A DNA stretch of 64,000 bases from Anaerolineales bacterium (GTDB taxonomy: Bacteria; Chloroflexota; Anaerolineae; Anaerolineales; Villigracilaceae): positions 1 through 64,000 of the forward strand of contig JADGEO010000001.1 of NCBI GenBank assembly GCA_016744335.1, written 5' to 3'. Shown piece by piece: positions 1,487-64,000 of this stretch. Made by a program: the position numbers and the translations under genes. Within the stretch, counting starts at the first letter, position 1; each line of letters starts with the position of its first letter. Under the pieces are notes generated by a model, which saw only the letters and a program-made list of their open reading frames with translations, was not told the DNA's origin and did not search any database.

Positions 1487-2305
1487 ATGCCGAAAAAATA
1501 CAATCCTAATGGAAAAATAAAAATCGATTATTACGAAGAAGAAATCGCAAAACTTCAGGGAGAGTTGGTCAAATTGCAATACTGGATAAAAGACCAGGGC
1601 TTACGCGTCATCGTCATTTTTGAGGGGCGTGACGCGGCGGGGAAGGGTGGAACCATTCACCGCGTGATGCGTCGCCTGAACCCTCGTATGGTTCGGGTGG
1701 TAGCTTTAGACAAACCCAGCGATTTAGAGCAACGCCAATGGTATTTTCAACGCTATATTGAGCATCTCCCTGCTGAGGGCGAAATGGTGCTTTTTGACCG
1801 TAGTTGGTATAACCGCGCTGGCGTTGAATGGGTAATGGGATTTTGCAAAGAAAAAGAATATAGACATTTTTTGAACGAAGTACCCAATTTTGAACGCATG
1901 TTAGTACGGGATGGAATCATTCTTATCAAATACTGGTTTGAAATTAGCGAAAAAACGCAAGAAGAACGCTTTCAGAGCCGCCACAACGACCCCCGCAAAC
2001 TCTGGAAACTCAGCCCTATGGATTTGAAATCTCGCGCGCTATGGGGCGAGTACTCTAAAGCCAAAGATGCCATGTTTGCCTATACAGACACCAATGAAAG
2101 TCCTTGGCATGTAGTACAGGCTAATGTAAAAAAACACGCTCGCTTAAATTGTATTTCTCATCTACTTTCTATGATTCCTTACCAAGACTTAACGCCTGCA
2201 TCAGTAGAACTTGGAGAGCGTGAGGAAACAGATTATCAACGCCCAGAAACCGAGGCTTATCATTTTGTTCCCCTTGCTTATGGCTCAAAATTTAAAGGTA
2301 ATTAG
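1487..2305 (+). CDS. ppk2: Polyphosphate kinase 2 family protein (canonical copy)
   Basis: PPK2 enzymes transfer phosphate between polyphosphate and nucleotides (ADP/ATP, GDP/GTP or AMP/ADP, depending on class). At 272 residues this is a single-domain PPK2. Walker A is GRDAAGKGG at residues 47-55 and Walker B is LFDRSWYNR with D104, and the family AGVEWVMGF follows. The start has a good ribosome-binding site (AAAAGGAG). It is followed 9 bp later by a second PPK2, then PPK1 and preceded by a CHAD remnant, forming a polyphosphate cluster. Single-domain size fits nucleoside-diphosphate kinase (class I) or AMP kinase (class II) types; sequence alone does not decide which. Confidence 0.9.
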   Translation: MPKKYNPNGKIKIDYYEEEIAKLQGELVKLQYWIKDQGLRVIVIFEGRDAAGKGGTIHRVMRRLNPRMVRVVALDKPSDLEQRQWYFQRYIEHLPAEGEMVLFDRSWYNRAGVEWVMGFCKEKEYRHFLNEVPNFERMLVRDGIILIKYWFEISEKTQEERFQSRHNDPRKLWKLSPMDLKSRALWGEYSKAKDAMFAYTDTNESPWHVVQANVKKHARLNCISHLLSMIPYQDLTPASVELGEREETDYQRPETEAYHFVPLAYGSKFKGN

Positions 2306-2314
2306 GAGAAACCC

Positions 2315-3136
2315 ATGACTACTGAAATAAAATATACAAAAGATGGCGTTATCACCCCTAAAGACTATCAGCGAGAACTACAAAAATTGCAAACGGAAAT
2401 GGTCAAGCTACAATCTTGGGTCAAAGATCAGGGTTTAAGAGTTATCATCCTATTTGAAGGGCGTGATGCGGCAGGCAAAACGACCATGATCAATCAAATT
2501 ACCCAACAATTTAACCCTCGTATCGTTCGCTCTGTGGCGTTAGATGCACCCAACGACAAAGAAAAACGACAATGGTATTTTCAGCGTTATATCAAACATT
2601 TTCCTGCTAAAGGAGAAATGGTTTTCTTCAACCGCAGTTGGTATAACCGTGCTGGCGTTGAATGGGTCATGGAATTTTGCACCGAAGATCAATATAGACT
2701 TTTCCTAAATGAGTGCCCCCAATTTGAGCGGATGCTCGTACGTGAGGGCTTTATTGTCATTAAATACTGGCTCTCCGTGAGCGCAGAAGAACAAGAAAAA
2801 CGTTTTCAAAACTGGATGAAAGATCCCCGAACACGATGGCGCTTTACAGACGTTGATAAAAAAGCCCGTCAAAATTGGGTTTTATATTCTAAAGCTAAAG
2901 ATTCGATGATGGCGCATACTGATATTGACGAAGCCCCCTGGTATATGGTTAATGCCGAAATCCAAGAACACGCTCACTTAAATATGATGGCACATATGCT
3001 CAACTTAGTCACCTACAAAGACCTAACGCCCGAACTAGAGAAACTAGAACCACGTCCAGAAAAAGATACAAATTATGTACGCCCTCCAATGAGTGAACAT
3101 AAATTAGTACCCGAAATTTATAAGAAACCAGAGTAA
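2315..3136 (+). CDS. Second PPK2 family protein, Walker B Asp replaced by Asn
   Basis: A 273-residue paralogue of the gene just upstream, clearly a tandem duplicate. Walker A reads GRDAAGKTT (residues 49-57) instead of GKGG. The Walker B motif reads FFNRSWYNR, with N106 where the first copy and the family have a catalytic aspartate; the codon is AAC in AACCGCAGTTGG. The rest of the fold signature (QWYFQRYIKHFP, YNRAGVEWVMEF) is intact and there is no frameshift, so the gene appears maintained. It may have altered metal or nucleotide handling, or be a regulatory or heteromeric partner of the first copy. RBS AGGAGAAACCC precedes ATG. Confidence 0.85.
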   Translation: MTTEIKYTKDGVITPKDYQRELQKLQTEMVKLQSWVKDQGLRVIILFEGRDAAGKTTMINQITQQFNPRIVRSVALDAPNDKEKRQWYFQRYIKHFPAKGEMVFFNRSWYNRAGVEWVMEFCTEDQYRLFLNECPQFERMLVREGFIVIKYWLSVSAEEQEKRFQNWMKDPRTRWRFTDVDKKARQNWVLYSKAKDSMMAHTDIDEAPWYMVNAEIQEHAHLNMMAHMLNLVTYKDLTPELEKLEPRPEKDTNYVRPPMSEHKLVPEIYKKPE

Positions 3137-16378: not shown

Positions 16379-19105
16379 CTATGCTCCACTGAGCAACTTC
16401 TCCAAAAGCACAAGCTCGTCTTTCTCGCTAGAAACTTCCCCGTCCAACCACGCATCGCGTAACTGTGACAAAATCTCTTTATATTGGGGACCCGGCTTCA
16501 GCCCGCGTTCTTTTAAATTATCGCCACTGATGGTGGGCTGGATATTGCGCCAGTTTGCGAGATATTCTTGGATGTTTTCTCGCAAATCATCATCAATATC
16601 ACAAAGAGATGCCGTGTAAAGCGCAAGGGGGGGGATTCCATCTAAACGGTGCGTCCAAATGCTGGGCTTTGCGTCTTTGAGCCTACCTAAATCGTCACAA
16701 AGTTTTCGGGTATCAAGAAGCGCATCTTTTAACGCAGTATGAAAACGAAGTCTCTTGATGACGGCACGGAGTTTTTCAATAGGGAGCGGCAATAACCAGA
16801 CCAAATATCCCAACACACGCCGTTTGGGAAGATGGGCAAGGGTAGGAATTTCACCAAGCACTGCCGGTGCTGGAGCATTAAGTGCTAGGCTTAGACGCGC
16901 ACCAAGATCAGAGTCAGGAGCGAGGGCGAAAGAAATGGCGGGGAACAAGCCTAAAGCTGAGAGACGCGTAAACATCTCCACCGCGCGCGGCTCGTCCCAG
17001 ATCAAATCCAATTCGTGCCGAATACGTTGCCCGGTTAATTTTGCGAGAAGCGGATGTGCTTCGTCCATCAACTCTTTGGTGCGGATGCCGAGCGTAAACC
17101 CGAAGCGTTGCTCAAAACGAATAGCACGCAAAATACGCGTGGGGTCATCTACAAAAGAAAGAGAATGCAAAACACGCACCAACCCACGCTCAAGATCAGC
17201 GAGACCGCCCCAATGGTCGTGAAGTTCGCCATAATGGGGTTTATCGAGGCGCAAGGCGAGGGTGTTGATAGTAAAATCACGGCGATGCAAATCGAGTTTG
17301 ATGGAGCCACGCGAAACAGTGGGGAGGGCGGTGGGACTGGTGTAGAATTCCGTTCGGGCTGTGATGAAATCAAGGAAGGTTGGGAGATTTAAAGGTTCGA
17401 AGGGTAAAAAGTTTTCTTCTTCAATTTTCAAACTTTCAACCTTAAACTCTGAATCTTCGAGAAACCACTTCGCCGTACCGAAACGCTCATGCTTGGTAAT
17501 GCGCCCTCCGTATTTTTCTACCATTTTTTCAGCTAAGGCAATTGCATCGCCTTCGACCACAAAATCAAAATCTAGGCTGGGGCGTTCCAAAATCAAATCT
17601 CGCACAAATCCACCCACTAAATACAAAGCTGAATTTTCGCTTTCTGCCACTTCAGAAACCTTGTGAATCAAATCAAGCCGCACTTTGGGCAAAGCGTTCT
17701 TGAGCAATTTTGCGTAATTGTTTTTTGCCCGCATGCTATCGGGAGCAAGGGTTTTGAGCAAGTCGGTGCGCGTCACGATACCGACCACTTTGCCCCCATC
17801 CACGACAGGAATTTGCCCCCACCCGCTATCTCGCATTTTTCGCTGAATAGTCGCCAAAGCATCGTCAAGCGCAAGGGTTACTTCACCAGCTTCCATTATT
17901 GCACCAGCCTTCGCATCCATTTTGTGCGAAATCGACCGATCTACGGCACGGCGATTGAGCAAGCCCACTACTTTCCCATTTTTGACTACAGGATAGCCCT
18001 CGTAGCCAAATTTTTTCATCAATTCAGATGCTTTTGACACCAATGTTTCTGGTGAAAGCGTTTGGGGACCACGGGACATTATCTCGGCAACAGTAATAGA
18101 TGGATGGATTTCTTCTCGGAGAATTTCGAGAAGGAATGCACATGGTACATTCGTACTTCGACTAGGCTCAACATCCGCGTTTTGGGTTTGCGTGCTGGTT
18201 AATTGGCTTGGTGCTTGCCCCTGCCCCTCTCTAACTCCCCCCGCGGGGGGAAGAACGTCGCTCTCTTTTATCAACGCCGCGGCAGCGCGTGGGTGCCCTC
18301 CACCGCCCAGTTTTTTGGCAATTTCTCCCACATTGATATTATCTGAAGATGAACGCGCAACAAGCCGCGTTCCGCTGGAAGTTTCAACAAGAATAAAGAG
18401 TGCATCTGGGTCGAGGAGATCGCGGAGTTTATGAGCGAGAGAAGAGATTTCTTCACCTGAACCCCGCGCATCTCCGCAAGCAATGACGATTTGATGTCCG
18501 TTAATCTCATGCGCGACAGCATTGGCACAAAGCTCATCGTAGATTTTTTGCTGGTTTGGCGAAAGGGGCGCGTTAAGAAAATCGGCGGCAATGTTGAGGT
18601 CGGCACCCTGCTCGAGAAGCCACGCGGCGGCACGAATATCGCGGGGCGTGGTACTGGCATAAGACAATGACCCCGTATCTTCGTAGATGCCAAGAAGGAG
18701 CAGAGTTGCTTGAATAGCAGATAAACGCTTATCGGAGGCAACCAAGCCTTCGCTCAAGAGCGTTGCAGTCGCGCCGACTAAATCAATCGTCACATCCCAA
18801 TCATCTGGCAAATCTTCTTTTAACGGGTGATGATCGAGAACGCGGACGCGCGTCTTCTTCCCCATTCCCTTGATTGTCACTAAAGATTGCGTGTCTACGA
18901 GGATGACTTCTTCTATTTTTTTTCGTGTGAGGTCACGCTGTTCAACAAGGGAAAATTCTCGCCCATAGAGCGTAAGAAAAGCGCGCAAATTGCGGTTGAT
19001 CTGGCGCGGCAAAACAGGAATAAATTCTTCGTTGAGTAGGTGCGCGCCGAAAAGGGAGGCAAGAGCATCAAAATCGGTGCGTTCGTGGGTGAGAATGATT
19101 TGCAT
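16379..19105 (-). CDS. DHH phosphoesterase - CBS pair - tRNA nucleotidyltransferase (CCA/A-adding) fusion
   Basis: 908 residues with three modules. Residues 1-290 form a DHH/DHHA1 phosphoesterase unit (DFDALAS near 11-17, VLDHHP with DHH at 91-93, GGGGHPRAAAA at the end of DHHA1). About 335-455 are two CBS domains (VAEIMSRGPQTLSPE; MEAGEVTLALDDALATI). From about 480 comes the class II nucleotidyltransferase head YLVGGFVRDLI with DFDFVVEG, then RRDFTINTLAL, DDPTRILRAIRFEQRF and an RNA-binding tail. This order is known from A-adding or CCA-adding enzymes of several phyla. The linker around 285-315 contains repeat-derived peptide (LPPAGGVREGQGQAP and VEPSRSTN), see separate entries. No Shine-Dalgarno; a -10 box lies 6 nt before ATG. 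Confidence 0.9.
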   Translation of the reverse strand: MQIILTHERTDFDALASLFGAHLLNEEFIPVLPRQINRNLRAFLTLYGREFSLVEQRDLTRKKIEEVILVDTQSLVTIKGMGKKTRVRVLDHHPLKEDLPDDWDVTIDLVGATATLLSEGLVASDKRLSAIQATLLLLGIYEDTGSLSYASTTPRDIRAAAWLLEQGADLNIAADFLNAPLSPNQQKIYDELCANAVAHEINGHQIVIACGDARGSGEEISSLAHKLRDLLDPDALFILVETSSGTRLVARSSSDNINVGEIAKKLGGGGHPRAAAALIKESDVLPPAGGVREGQGQAPSQLTSTQTQNADVEPSRSTNVPCAFLLEILREEIHPSITVAEIMSRGPQTLSPETLVSKASELMKKFGYEGYPVVKNGKVVGLLNRRAVDRSISHKMDAKAGAIMEAGEVTLALDDALATIQRKMRDSGWGQIPVVDGGKVVGIVTRTDLLKTLAPDSMRAKNNYAKLLKNALPKVRLDLIHKVSEVAESENSALYLVGGFVRDLILERPSLDFDFVVEGDAIALAEKMVEKYGGRITKHERFGTAKWFLEDSEFKVESLKIEEENFLPFEPLNLPTFLDFITARTEFYTSPTALPTVSRGSIKLDLHRRDFTINTLALRLDKPHYGELHDHWGGLADLERGLVRVLHSLSFVDDPTRILRAIRFEQRFGFTLGIRTKELMDEAHPLLAKLTGQRIRHELDLIWDEPRAVEMFTRLSALGLFPAISFALAPDSDLGARLSLALNAPAPAVLGEIPTLAHLPKRRVLGYLVWLLPLPIEKLRAVIKRLRFHTALKDALLDTRKLCDDLGRLKDAKPSIWTHRLDGIPPLALYTASLCDIDDDLRENIQEYLANWRNIQPTISGDNLKERGLKPGPQYKEILSQLRDAWLDGEVSSEKDELVLLEKLLSGA
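18153..18253 (-). repeat. Two repeat-like units read in frame inside the DHH-CBS linker
   Basis: 18216-18253 carries CCCCTCTCTAACTCCCCCC and a GGGGGG arm, the same G/C-rich palindrome as at 20755, 46960, 58844 and 59143. 18153-18177 carries TTCGACTAGGCTCAACA. Together they encode about 30 residues at the junction of the DHHA1 and CBS modules without breaking the frame. Confidence 0.6.
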
Positions 19106-46580: not shown

Positions 46581-48362
46581 ATGTTCTTACCTACCACACG
46601 CAAAGAAATGGATACACTTGGCTGGGATTCGCTTGACATCATCATCGTCAGCGGCGATAGCTATATAGACAGCCCTTTTATGGGGACTGCCCTAATCGGC
46701 AAGGTTTTAGCTAACGCGGGATACCGTGTCGGAATCATTGCGCAACCTGACACAAAATCCACGCGTGACGTGGGCAGGCTTGGCGAACCCAAACTTTTTT
46801 GGGGCGTAACCGCGGGAAGTATCGATTCGATGGTCTCAAATTACACCGCCCTCAAAAGAAAACGCCGCACCGATGACTACACGCCAGGCGGAGAAAACAA
46901 TCTCAGACCCGATAGAGCAACCATTGTCTACACTGGGTTAATACGGCGTTATATGAAAACCCGCCCCCATCCTAGCCTTCCCCCGAAGGGGGAAGGGACT
47001 ATTCTCCCCCCTTCGGGGGGAGCTAGAGGGGGGAAGCCCCCCATCGTTCTTGGCGGAATAGAAGCCAGCTTACGCCGCGTTCCCCATTACGATTATTGGA
47101 CAAATAAAATTCGCCGTTCCATCATCTTTGACGCCAAAGCCGATTATATTCTCTACGGTATGGCAGAAAAATCAACTTTAGAATTCGCCGCGGCTCTTCG
47201 TGAAGGAAACGATCCACACGAAATACGTGGATTAAGTTATATTGCCAAAGAAGCCCGCGAAGATTATCTTGAACTCGCCCCCTATGAAGAAATTGCCAAA
47301 GATAAAATGGCATTTATTGAGTTTTTCCATACTTTTTATAAAAATAATGACCCTATCCCCGCAAAAGGATTAACCCAAAAACATGGCAATCGCTATCTCG
47401 TTCAAAATCCACCTGCGCTCTACCAAACAGAAGAAGAGTTAGATTCCGTATATGCACTAAAGTTCGAACGCTCACAGCATCCCTATTATGCAAAAAATGG
47501 CAAAGTACGTGCGTTAGATACCGTTGGTTTTTCTATCCCCACCCACCGTGGCTGTTATGGAGAATGTAATTTCTGCGCTATTGCTGTGCATGAAGGGCGC
47601 ACAATCCGCTCACGAAGCCAAGATTCTATTGTTGATGAAGCCAAAACAATTACGAAGCACGCTCATTTCAAAGGCTATATTTCAGATTTAGGTGGACCCA
47701 CTGCTAATATGTATGGCTACGAATGTGGAAAAAAATTAAAAGCTGGCAACTGTACACACAAGCGGTGTGTTAGCCCCGTCATCTGCCCCGTTATAAAGAT
47801 TGACCATCGTCCCCACGCCGAAGTTTTAGAAAAGGTCAGCCAGATAGAAGGAGTTAAGAAAGTCTTCGTTGCCTCTGGTTTACGCTACGATATGATTCTC
47901 AGCGACACCCAGCACGGCGATGATTATCTGCGTCAGGTCGTCACTCATCATACATCTGGTCAAATGAAAATAGCACCAGAGCATACCGAAAATCATGTTT
48001 TAATGAAGATGGGCAAACCGGGGACAGAATCCTTAATCAAATTTAAAGAACGTTTTGAAGAACTCAACAAAAAAGCAGGCAAAAAACAATTTCTAACTTA
48101 TTATATGATTGCCGCGCATCCGGGCTGTGACGATAACGACATGCGTAAAATGAAAGGTTTTGTAAGCAGTGAACTACGCATCAATCCCGAACAAGTGCAA
48201 ATTTTTACCCCCACGCCATCCACCTACTCAAGCGTAATGTACTGGACAGAAATGGACCCGTGGACACTTGAGCCGATGTTCATAGAAAAAGACCCAAATC
48301 GAAAAAGAAAGCAAAAAGATATTATTACGCAAAAAAACACAAGAAGAAAAGGGCGCAGGTAA
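46581..48362 (+). CDS. YgiQ family radical SAM protein
   Basis: 593 residues. N-terminal region WDSLDIIIVSGDSYIDSPFM typical of YgiQ; radical SAM cysteine set C325, C329, C332 in HRGCYGECNFCAI; DLGGPTANMYG after it. The C-terminal GKPGTESLIKFKERF and FTPTPSTYSSVMYWTEMDP are also family signatures. Exact reaction unknown; relatives are poorly characterised radical SAM enzymes. About 27 residues (near 127-154: RPHPSLPPKGEGTILPPSGG and the following GARGG) are encoded by repeat DNA inserted in frame. No RBS; leaderless promoter. Confidence 0.88.
   Translation: MFLPTTRKEMDTLGWDSLDIIIVSGDSYIDSPFMGTALIGKVLANAGYRVGIIAQPDTKSTRDVGRLGEPKLFWGVTAGSIDSMVSNYTALKRKRRTDDYTPGGENNLRPDRATIVYTGLIRRYMKTRPHPSLPPKGEGTILPPSGGARGGKPPIVLGGIEASLRRVPHYDYWTNKIRRSIIFDAKADYILYGMAEKSTLEFAAALREGNDPHEIRGLSYIAKEAREDYLELAPYEEIAKDKMAFIEFFHTFYKNNDPIPAKGLTQKHGNRYLVQNPPALYQTEEELDSVYALKFERSQHPYYAKNGKVRALDTVGFSIPTHRGCYGECNFCAIAVHEGRTIRSRSQDSIVDEAKTITKHAHFKGYISDLGGPTANMYGYECGKKLKAGNCTHKRCVSPVICPVIKIDHRPHAEVLEKVSQIEGVKKVFVASGLRYDMILSDTQHGDDYLRQVVTHHTSGQMKIAPEHTENHVLMKMGKPGTESLIKFKERFEELNKKAGKKQFLTYYMIAAHPGCDDNDMRKMKGFVSSELRINPEQVQIFTPTPSTYSSVMYWTEMDPWTLEPMFIEKDPNRKRKQKDIITQKNTRRKGRR
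46960..47042 (+). repeat. Double G/C-rich palindrome inserted in frame within ygiQ
   Basis: Two oppositely oriented units: CCCCCATCCTAGCCTTCCCC with a GGGGGAAGGG arm (46964-46997), then CCCCCCTTCGGGGGGAGCTA and GAGGGGGGAAG (47006-47035). Same element type as at 18216, 20755, 58844 and 59143. No frameshift results. Confidence 0.75.
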
Positions 48363-52364: not shown

Positions 52365-52381
52365 TTGAAACTCCTAGCTTT

Positions 52382-52428
52382 CGTCTAACAGAACCCATTC
52401 CCTTTAAGGGAACGGGTTCTGTTAGACG
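52382..52428. repeat. Long stem-loop upstream of gyrA
   Basis: CGTCTAACAGAACCC pairs with GGGTTCTGTTAGACG around an inner TTCCC/GGGAA stem, 20-bp overall with one mismatch. In the gyrA leader on the minus strand, 17 bp before ATG, where it could sequester or expose the RBS. On the plus strand a T-rich segment follows, so a terminator for leftward read-through from the other strand is possible but no gene would use it. Confidence 0.6.
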
Positions 52429-52440
52429 ACTTGTTTTTTA

Positions 52441-58046: not shown

Positions 58047-60539
58047 CTACAACAAACTAACCGGCTCAACCTCCACCCGCCACCCCTTTGACAAGCTCAG
58101 GGCAAGACGCTTCAACACAAGATCAGGCTCTGGACCCCGCAAAACAATTTGCCAACGATAAATGCCATCTACTTTTGCAAAAAAACTGGGCACAGGACCA
58201 ATCACTGTCGTCTGTTTTCGGTTTTCAGTAATCAGTAGTTTTTTGATTTCCTCAGCAAGTTTCTGCGCTTCTTCTTCGGCTTTGATGGCATCTCTATTTC
58301 GATATTCCAATTTCACCAATTTCGCAAAGGGCGGATATCCCAGTTTGCGCCGATGTTCGAGTTCCTGCAAGTAGAAATTGCTGTAATCATGCCCCGAAGC
58401 GTGCTGAATGACGTAATTTTCTGGGTCAAAACTTTGCAAGACCACGCGTCCCCCACGCGCGGAGCGTCCCGCTCGTCCCGCTACTTGTGTCAGCGTCTGA
58501 AAAACTCCTTCGGCGGCAAAAGGGTCAGGGAGATTTAATCCCACATCTGCCAAAATCACACCAACAAGGGTGACGAGGGGCAAATCTAAGCCTTTAGCGA
58601 GCATTTGTGTACCAATCAAAATATCGGCACGATGAGCGGTGAAGTGGCTCAAAATGAGATCGTGCGCACCTTTTTTGCGGGTGGTATCCCAATCCCAGCG
58701 CAAAGTGCGGGCATCGGGGAAAAGAGCATTGACTTCCGCTTCTACTTTTTGACTACCCAGCCCATAGCCGCGAATTTTAGTGCTTTGGCAGGTGGGGCAT
58801 TTCTTGGGCATTTGACGTTTATATCCGCAACGATGGCATTGCAATTCCCCCCCTCTAGCTCCCCCCCTGAGGGGAGGAATACTGTGTAAGGTGAGCGGCG
58901 TATCACAGCGAGGGCAATCGAGGCTTTCGCCACACTCTCTGCAGAAAACATAAGTTGCTGAACCACGCCGATTAAGGAAGAGAATCGCCTGCTCGCCGCG
59001 CTCTAGCGTTTGGGCAAGGGCTTCTTCTAAGGCTCTGCTAAAAATGCCGATATTGCCCAATTTTAACTCGGTGCGCATATCTACAACCTGCACAGGAGGA
59101 AGCTCGCGTTGAGCAATGCGGTGAGGTAATTCTACAAGCTCTACCCCCTTCCCAACCCTTCCCCCGAGGGGGGAAGGGCTTTTTTCTGCATGATATATAT
59201 ACTCAACAGGCGGCGTAGCCGAGCCTAAAATGCAAACCGCTCCACAAATCTCTGCATAATTTTGCGCCGCACGCACTGCATTATAAAAAGGGGGCTGATT
59301 TTGATGATAAGAATTATCGTGAAACTCATCCAAAACAATCAACCTGATATTTGGCAAAGGTGCAAAAAGAGCCGAGCGTGCACCGATAATAACCTTCAGT
59401 TTTCCTGCCCGCGCCCGTCTCCACGTATCATAATTTTCACCTGGCGAGAGTTTCGAGTGCACCAACCCTACTTCTCCAGCAAAACGCGCCAAAAATCGCC
59501 GCACCGTTTGCGCCGTAAGCGCAATTTCTGGCACTAAGATCAACGCCTGCCCGCCCTGCTTCACCGCCTCTTGCGCGGCACGGATGTAAATCTCGGTTTT
59601 TCCAGAGCCAGTGATTCCATGTAATAAAATTGGCCACTTTTGCAAATCAGCGAAAGAAGCGTTTACGACCTTCATTGCCTTTTCTTGCGCATCATTCAGC
59701 ACATGCTCAAAACTCTCCTCTTCTCTAATTTCGACTTTCTGCACAGGATCACGCCAAATCTCTGTTTCTCGCAAGACAATTAAATCTCGCTCTGCCAAAA
59801 TTTTCAAATCAGACAGATTGCATCCGCTCTCGGCGTAGACCCAAGTTACAGCGACAGCTTCCTTTTCTCTGATTAGGAATTGAAGTGCCGCGGCGCGCCT
59901 GTTTTGAGTTTGTTCGGTACTCCCCAACTTGGTCATCTGCTCCAACGCGACGCGCGGCGAAACTGCCAACTGCGCCATCCGAATCATCTTCGGGCGGACG
60001 CGAGGTGCCGGCAAAACAGACTTGCTCTCTAAGATGCCACGCTTCACCAAATTTCCTGCTGATTTTCGCCAATCAACGTGTTTGAAGTGCGTATCTATTT
60101 GCCGTCCGCGTAGAGAGCCGCGTTTTTGAAAAAGGGCAAGGAGACGTTTCTGAGTTTGGGAGAGTTCGGTATTCGGGATTTGGGGTTCGGCATTCAGTAT
60201 TCGGTATTCGGTATCCGCCCTTTGACTTAATCCAGTCGGCAATATCATCCCCACCATTGCAGATACAGAATTCAAAGTCTCCTCCGCCATCTTTTCAGCC
60301 AATGTAATTTGTACGGGAGTAAGAACGGGAAGAGAATCGAGTATATCGATCACTTCTTTTGTATCTTTTACTGCGGGCGTATCCACAAAGCGTAAAATCA
60401 CCCCCTGTACAACTTGATTATTAAATGGCACAGTTACCAAATGCCCTATACTTACTTTTCCTTCTAACTTAGGGGACAAGTGGTAGTCAAATACACCACT
60501 AATAGCAGGGATATTGACAGAGATTTGAACAAAGGTCAT
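58047..60539 (-). CDS. priA: Primosomal protein N' (replication restart helicase PriA)
   Basis: 830-residue superfamily 2 helicase restarting collapsed forks. N-terminal DNA-binding domain (VSIGHLVTVPFNNQVVQGVI), Walker A ITGSGKTEIYI, and Walker B LIVLDEFHDNSYHQ (DEFH rather than the usual DEEH). The zinc-binding set is CRECGESLDCPRCDTPLTLH and CHRCGYKRQMPKKCPTCQS, and LIGTQMLAKGLDLPLVT is motif V-like. Three in-frame repeat insertions and one microsatellite-like stretch interrupt it, see separate entries, and account for part of its length above the 730-residue norm. No Shine-Dalgarno was seen. Confidence 0.92.
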   Translation of the reverse strand: MTFVQISVNIPAISGVFDYHLSPKLEGKVSIGHLVTVPFNNQVVQGVILRFVDTPAVKDTKEVIDILDSLPVLTPVQITLAEKMAEETLNSVSAMVGMILPTGLSQRADTEYRILNAEPQIPNTELSQTQKRLLALFQKRGSLRGRQIDTHFKHVDWRKSAGNLVKRGILESKSVLPAPRVRPKMIRMAQLAVSPRVALEQMTKLGSTEQTQNRRAAALQFLIREKEAVAVTWVYAESGCNLSDLKILAERDLIVLRETEIWRDPVQKVEIREEESFEHVLNDAQEKAMKVVNASFADLQKWPILLHGITGSGKTEIYIRAAQEAVKQGGQALILVPEIALTAQTVRRFLARFAGEVGLVHSKLSPGENYDTWRRARAGKLKVIIGARSALFAPLPNIRLIVLDEFHDNSYHQNQPPFYNAVRAAQNYAEICGAVCILGSATPPVEYIYHAEKSPSPLGGRVGKGVELVELPHRIAQRELPPVQVVDMRTELKLGNIGIFSRALEEALAQTLERGEQAILFLNRRGSATYVFCRECGESLDCPRCDTPLTLHSIPPLRGGARGGELQCHRCGYKRQMPKKCPTCQSTKIRGYGLGSQKVEAEVNALFPDARTLRWDWDTTRKKGAHDLILSHFTAHRADILIGTQMLAKGLDLPLVTLVGVILADVGLNLPDPFAAEGVFQTLTQVAGRAGRSARGGRVVLQSFDPENYVIQHASGHDYSNFYLQELEHRRKLGYPPFAKLVKLEYRNRDAIKAEEEAQKLAEEIKKLLITENRKQTTVIGPVPSFFAKVDGIYRWQIVLRGPEPDLVLKRLALSLSKGWRVEVEPVSLL
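58087..58107 (-). repeat. In-frame repeat at the priA C-terminus (TTTGACAAGCTCAGGGC type)
   Basis: On the plus strand TTTGACAAGCTCAGGGCAAG. It encodes LALSLSKG near the C-terminus of PriA. This element is the same class of short dispersed repeat as the segment at 18153-18177. Confidence 0.55.
58844..58880 (-). repeat. In-frame G/C-rich palindrome in the priA zinc domain
   Basis: TTCCCCCCCTCTAGCTCCCC and CCTGAGGGGAGG. Encodes SIPPLRGGARGGE between the two cysteine groups of the zinc-binding domain. Same element type as at 46960-47042. Confidence 0.7.
59143..59184 (-). repeat. In-frame G/C-rich palindrome in priA helicase region
   Basis: CCCCCTTCCCAACCCTTCCC with a GGGGGGAAGGG arm. Encodes SPSPLGGRVGKG after EYIYHAEK, between the helicase lobes. 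Confidence 0.7.
60165..60215 (-). repeat. TATTCGG short tandem stretch inside priA
   Basis: TTCGGTATTCGGG...TTCGGCATTCAGTATTCGGTA plus similar intergenic sequence at 60540-60604 (GTATTTCGTATCAGGTATTG). On the coding strand it reads RADTEYRILNAEPQIPNTEL, a low-complexity insertion in the linker after the N-terminal domain. Confidence 0.6.
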
Positions 60540-63453: not shown

Positions 63454-64000
63454 TTATGAGAGTTTTTCCCACTTAGTTGTAGCTCTGCGACGTAGAAGAA
63501 AACCAGTTATCGCAAAGAAAATTGTGACAACCAATAGAATTTCTTGCCATACTGTAAGCGAAGGTGCAGGGGTAGCTTCTGCGCTTCCTTCTATATTAGG
63601 CGTGAGAGTCATTGCGGGCAGTTTCTCCACAGTTTGATTATCTGTGGAAGACCTCTCCATTTCTGTCTCGTTGCTTGAGGGAGCTTCTTCTACTGCCGCG
63701 TCTTCTACATTTTCTACTGGCTCTGCCATAGGTGTAGTTTCTGCACTTCTCGCACCTTCGGCTTCTTCTTCGAGAGCTTCAGTTACTGGAATAGCTTCTT
63801 CTTCGACAACTTCTTCTTCGGCAGGCACACCTGCCGCGCTTTTGGCAGGTTCTTCTGCTGATGAGGGTTCTTCTTCCATCTCTGCTTCAGATTCCATAAT
63901 TTCGGAGTCATCTGCCATTGGCACAGCTTCTTCTTCAGCCGCGTATTCTCCTGCCGCGGCAGGAGCTTCTGCCACGGCGGGGTCTTCTGCCACGGCGGGG
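63454..64000 (-). CDS. Acidic, membrane-anchored protein, C-terminal part (5' end outside window)
   Basis: The frame is open to the right edge, so only about 180 C-terminal residues are seen. It is low-complexity and rich in Glu, Ala, Pro and Val (AEEPAKSAAGVPAEEEVVEE). A single TM segment, ILLVVTIFFAITGFLL, precedes a basic tail RRRATTKWEKLS, so the acidic part should be outside the membrane. At the right edge GCCACGGCGGGGTCTTCT repeats, encoding a repeated AEDPAV unit. Resembles C-terminal linkers plus anchors of cell-surface proteins; the main domain is not in view. Confidence 0.55.
   Translation of the reverse strand, partial: PAVAEDPAVAEAPAAAGEYAAEEEAVPMADDSEIMESEAEMEEEPSSAEEPAKSAAGVPAEEEVVEEEAIPVTEALEEEAEGARSAETTPMAEPVENVEDAAVEEAPSSNETEMERSSTDNQTVEKLPAMTLTPNIEGSAEATPAPSLTVWQEILLVVTIFFAITGFLLRRRATTKWEKLS

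Follow-up and report, generated by a model that had tools for sequence, protein, structure and literature searches.

Four short segments of the replication-restart helicase PriA of an Anaerolineales bacterium (Chloroflexota) are, in all likelihood, derived from repeats that inserted without disturbing the reading frame, at loops and linkers under little constraint, and were retained because they cause no serious damage, a judgement that leaves aside any relation of the palindromes among them to the DUF559 nuclease domain. Two of the segments are single units of a REPIN-like palindromic family, one is a heptanucleotide array and one is a dispersed CTTCGACAAGCTCAG motif. The gene lies in the window, i.e. 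the whole stretch of 64,000 nucleotides that was analysed, which belongs to a 3.62-Mb draft genome of 134 contigs (G000 below).

PriA and its four repeat-derived segments

The host gene, which an earlier note made from the letters of the window had called priA, is borne out as such by NCBIfam (TIGR00595, score 547 bits, cut-off 230), by the PriA_3primeBD and PriA_C domains of Pfam, and by the best matches among solved structures, all of which are PriA. The four segments that the note had picked out are all present within a few bases of where it had placed them (Table 1), in frame and with no stop or frameshift; it was also right that one of them sits amid the zinc-binding cysteine groups: PPLRGGARGG (site III) lies between cysteine pairs 2 and 3. 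Site II is a lone right unit of the palindromic family and site III a lone left one. In an AlphaFold model built on 30 related sequences, five stretches have pLDDT values below 50, including residues 455-463 (insert II) and 555-562 (insert III), and these two inserts are predicted to be disordered, low-confidence loops.

Table 1. Features discussed in the text, with positions in the 64,000-nt window
Feature	Position	Strand	Evidence
A-adding tRNA nucleotidyltransferase, host	16379..19105	-	
Palindrome in frame (LPPAGGV) in the tRNA nucleotidyltransferase	18226..18253	-	
YgiQ-family radical SAM protein, host	46581..48362	+	
Complete REPIN-like unit in frame in ygiQ, made up of two inverted hairpin units	46964..47033	+	
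priA, primosomal replication-restart helicase, 830 aa	58047..60539	-	NCBIfam, Pfam, structure
PriA site IV, aa 812-819, LALSLSKG, dispersed CTTTGACAAGCTCAG motif	58083..58106	-	
PriA site III, aa 555-564, PPLRGGARGG, single REPIN-like unit of the other half (CTAGCTCCCCC)	58848..58880	-	
PriA site II, aa 455-465, PSPLGGRVGKG, single REPIN-like unit: CTTCCCCCCTCGGGGGAAG hairpin and G-rich tail	59145..59178	-	
PriA site I, aa 110-125, TATTCGG-like heptanucleotide array, linker after the 3'-DNA-binding domain	60165..60212	-	

When 30 PriA proteins with 56-86% identity to the one under study (85% for the nearest named GTDB relative, an Anaerolineae bin) are aligned, all four segments fall in variable positions that in other species are empty or occupied by different repeats, and the peptides are not conserved in the PriA of these relatives. 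The earlier note had taken the segments for strain-specific insertions. This holds for the C-terminal one (site IV), which is found in its own genome only, but not for site III, whose palindrome is common to G002 with similar segments in G007 and G005 (RGG-related peptides occur there in four species of the genus), nor for site I, where the linker is variable throughout the family. At site II, a different palindrome is present in G007, G003 and G005 (THSRSARISLSRxAGEGE..GGEG) and a third one in G033 (TPSPLPEGDG..), while site III is occupied by heptamers or other dispersed repeats in other genera; the PriA of G008 is without inserts II, III and IV. The site I DNA of 29 relatives reaches an identity of 42% when shifted by 7 bases, as against 22-27% at all other shifts from 4 to 12, with the period of 7 individually significant at 0.02 in 13 of the 29, and its heptamers vary between genera.

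Dispersal of the repeats and their other hosts

Genome-wide, the repeats are dispersed: CTTYGACAAGCTCAG occurs nine times, CTCTAGCTCCCCC six times and the palindrome CTTCCCCCRNNGGGGGAAG in about 40 distinct places, each against zero for its reversed control, whereas the loose ATTCNNN pattern barely exceeds its control (11 vs 9). The generic hairpin TCCCCCN(2-8)GGGGGA is found 75 times against none in the control, the top count among 24 genomes. A chance origin of the repeats is ruled out by the reversed controls together with shuffles. The heptamer array of site I has a TRF score of 58, and its exact three-unit TATTCGG form has one further copy in the genome (G000:C85:10007; L074:2505-2530), where it is read in frame within an ORF of 742 aa whose C-terminus looks to us like that of a DNA ligase. 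Within the window itself, the recurrence claimed in the note stands only in part: the two palindromes alone recur, in other genes (at 18235, 46977 and 47016) and never between genes, while the other copies of the heptamer array and of the site IV repeat all lie outside the 64-kb window, elsewhere in the genome. A separate 18-nt tandem repeat, TCTTCTGCCACGGCGGGG, occupies the end of the window in three copies (63947-64000).

PriA is no exceptional host: some 20 further proteins encoded in this genome carry the same palindromes in frame. The hosts include the A-adding tRNA nucleotidyltransferase, YgiQ, RecQ, MtaB, CinA, a DEAH helicase, LeuS and ArgH, as well as a PEP-synthase-like protein, CofE, Maf and a radical-SAM protein. 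In an unselected sample of 463 kb on long contigs (C46, C57 and C68, chosen irrespective of their repeats, with a coding density of 83-87%), 13 of 15 palindrome copies fall within called ORFs, as against 21 of 38 genome-wide (at most one mismatch), a difference that indicates that the repeats of the small contigs are more often intergenic. The 21 copies within ORFs are read in all three frames (12, 4 and 5 copies), most commonly as LPPxGEG. The repeats account for odd peptides, such as LPPSGEG or SLGLSPxGGE, in proteins of these bacteria. The 463-kb sample also holds 12 copies of a further repeat, GCCGAGGACGGCGGCTAGAGCA, one of them inside a short ORF.

In a full unit of the palindromic family, hairpin A and its C-rich tail are followed by a spacer and an inverted hairpin B, and the whole folds end to end; such units are conserved over about 100 nt across unrelated genes. 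Sites without them are found among relatives: the YgiQ site is without its 70-nt unit in G008, G002, G007 and G011 and holds other pairs in G006 and G005, and the 34-aa insert of LeuS is missing in G008, G002, G007 and G005. At the LeuS and YgiQ sites some 4-12 host residues seem to have been replaced and not merely pushed apart, a loss that, judged from the sequences, would not be separable from drift at all sites since the loops are variable anyway.

Several further duplications and insertions were seen in this genome. The C-terminus of LeuS has a 64-aa copy, 92% identical, 1.2 kb from leuS (C68:72721-72912; L131). The CTTCGACAAGCTCAG motif lies in frame in RecJ (ESFDKLRATG; L071:1404-1418), another host from DNA repair. 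At 1487-3136 of the window, two neighbouring ORFs (272 and 273 aa) share a 300-nt stretch at 73% identity and are probably a tandem gene duplication.

DUF559 domains within host proteins and the possible movement of the palindromes

A UvrD-like helicase of the same genome (C68:3501-6182) contains a whole DUF559 domain between two full palindromic units, all in a single reading frame. The corresponding site is empty in G002 and G008, which are 90-92% identical on both sides of it, and also in G007 and G003, and it holds a solo palindrome in G001; one site therefore exists in empty, solo and nuclease-bearing states among congeners. In the relatives, many DUF559 domains lie within ORFs of 350 to more than 1300 aa. 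In MetH, HMG-CoA reductase and ValRS, Pfam recognises the host both before and after DUF559; in PIG-L, APH and several DNA methylase proteins it finds host domains next to DUF559. The embedded domains have repeat-like peptides on their flanks, and at 10 of 25 loci the left and right flanks match each other more closely than those of 99% of random sites, a null that itself includes some repeats. The unit that flanks DUF559 is also found solo in LeuS of the genome under study and in MetH of G007. Seven embedded domains show no variation at the D, E and FRRQHP positions.

In a tree of 57 DUF559 domains, divided into embedded and stand-alone classes by ORF length, the embedded label changes 3 times as against 16 with shuffled labels. 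One clade of embedded domains has the unrelated genes for UvrD (G000), HMG-CoA reductase (G002) and MetH (G041) as its hosts; as the embedded lifestyle is kept while the host gene changes, the tree points to an element that has moved between host genes. In MetH, DUF559 sits at apparently the same site in six genomes (L177, L180, L181, L182, L159 and L148), and the domain in the MetH of G041 groups with those from other host genes, so that both inheritance and re-invasion may have occurred there. No embedded DUF559 was seen in PriA. Palindrome counts per genome do not track embedded DUF559 cleanly (G006 has 53 palindromes and no embedded domain) in a comparison where nearly all genomes are drafts with mechanical gene calls, and a link between the two is suggestive at most. 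The heptamers and the CTTCGACAAGCTCAG motif show no link to DUF559.

These observations lead us to a tentative proposal, to which we give somewhat less than an even chance: a gene-dwelling mobile element would consist of a Vsr-like DUF559 domain that has no start or stop of its own and bears REPIN-like palindromes on its flanks, and it would enter housekeeping genes in frame and remain there within the host protein; its non-autonomous, MITE-like relatives would be the palindromes that stand alone in PriA and the roughly 20 other proteins. That the solo palindromes are non-autonomous relatives of the DUF559 element is, taken by itself, a fair possibility approaching an even chance. Under the proposal the Vsr-like nuclease would be the enzyme that mobilises the palindromes, cutting or nicking DNA, after which repair would bring in repeat units. 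Such breakage and repair may insert units at the cost of a few host codons, and selection would then purge out-of-frame or core insertions and leave the in-frame cases in loops. The repeat pieces in PriA, for their part, very probably persist because they do no serious harm.

A rival reading, which we regard as somewhat unlikely, dispenses with dedicated machinery: template switching, slippage and illegitimate repair would spread palindromes and heptamers, which accumulate where proteins tolerate them. It is favoured by the several unrelated repeat families at the same PriA sites, by heptamers that differ from genus to genus, and by the apparent replacement of some host residues, no target duplication having been seen; on the other hand, it sits poorly with the conservation of the units over about 100 nt in unrelated genes and with embedded DUF559 domains that retain their flanking units while changing hosts. 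Y1_Tnp genes are present in 34 of the 35 genomes searched (five matches in G000), and the two inverted hairpins of the unit are a REPIN-like feature. An ordinary REP/REPIN family moved by RAYT transposases, with DUF559 as cargo caught between two copies, is nevertheless the weaker alternative for the intragenic palindrome and in our view an unlikely one. The Y1_Tnp genes examined have different palindromes as neighbours: AACCCGTTCCCTTGAAGGGAACGGGTT flanks C49:14496 left and right, and ACCCCTTCGGGGT lies next to C33:38661. Moreover, AACCCGTTCCCTTGAAGGGAACGGGTT is found within ORFs in 0 of 12 cases as against 13 of 15 for the intragenic palindrome (Fisher p 6e-6); the intragenic family is absent beside Y1_Tnp at the loci of G000 and at 12 congener loci from incomplete drafts. 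The palindrome flanking C49:14496 has a family member in the window, a near-perfect 24-nt inverted repeat (AGAACCCATTCCCTT/AAGGGAACGGGTTCT) at 52381-52429, in the gap before a 1445-aa ORF.

Selection of the inserts for a function in PriA, e.g. in regulating DNA or protein contacts, might be suspected from the placement of one of them between the zinc cysteines of an essential helicase and from the related RGG peptides at this site in four species. We consider it very improbable, given that the same peptides appear in many unrelated proteins, that the palindromes are read in three frames, that close relatives do without inserts (II, III and IV in G008) and that inserts II and III are disordered by prediction. 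An in-frame nuclease within conserved proteins is also reminiscent of homing elements; yet the idea that the DUF559 insertions are inteins or introns, removed so that the hosts are not truly fused, is scarcely credible, as an intein domain was detected by Pfam in 0 of 17 scanned DUF559 hosts and an Rfam intron at 0 of 5 host loci, and the flanking repeats are those that persist on their own in LeuS and YgiQ. If the proposed DUF559 element is real, it would be a mobile element living within genes without breaking them. To our knowledge, in-frame repeat insertion is a rare source of new protein segments, found mainly in Rickettsia, and we know of no mobilising enzyme for it. The present system offers a candidate for such an enzyme in a phylum distant from Rickettsia, and its empty, solo and nuclease-bearing states make the movement of the repeats and their survival in essential genes testable.

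Parallels with known repeat systems

Head-to-tail arrays of heptamers dispersed in the genome are known from cyanobacteria as STRRs, and the 7-nt units at PriA site I are arranged in the same way. Dispersed head-to-tail TAACTGA heptamers are likewise described for Beggiatoaceae (PMC4679880). Unlike these, the array seen here is in frame within priA, and the heptamers that occupy this linker vary between genera. The embedded nuclease belongs to the same domain family as stand-alone DUF559 (PF04480) proteins, of which a Caulobacter member is a Vsr-like PD-(D/E)XK endonuclease (PMC12907096); it differs in forming clades whose members lie inside large host ORFs and are bordered left and right by REPIN-like repeats. 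The repeats have no match in Rfam. In the open-licence literature that was searched, we found neither in-frame DUF559 elements nor a DUF559-REPIN link, and within the same bounds nothing pertinent on the CTTCGACAAGCTCAG motif and in-frame selfish palindromes.

With REPs and REPINs the palindromes share dispersed short hairpin units, often in inverted pairs with a spacer, and intragenic REPs have been recorded in replication and repair genes, where two Xanthomonas species carry different REPs at roughly one and the same position of recB (PMC3733652). They differ in being mostly intragenic on long contigs and not extragenic, in having no RAYT beside this family, and in showing, in units read by eye, no GTAG/CGTC tag but a C-rich tail with CTAG or CTAA instead. 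Rickettsia palindromic elements comprise several families that form in-frame fusions in many unrelated host genes (PMC10969869), and the likeness to them drawn in the earlier note is apt: here, too, several unrelated repeat families are fused in frame to many unrelated hosts, with 21 of 38 palindrome copies within ORFs. The present elements differ from the Rickettsia ones, known to us by description, in their occurrence in Chloroflexota, their sequences, their units of about 35-100 nt, and the complete units that flank a DUF559 nuclease domain.
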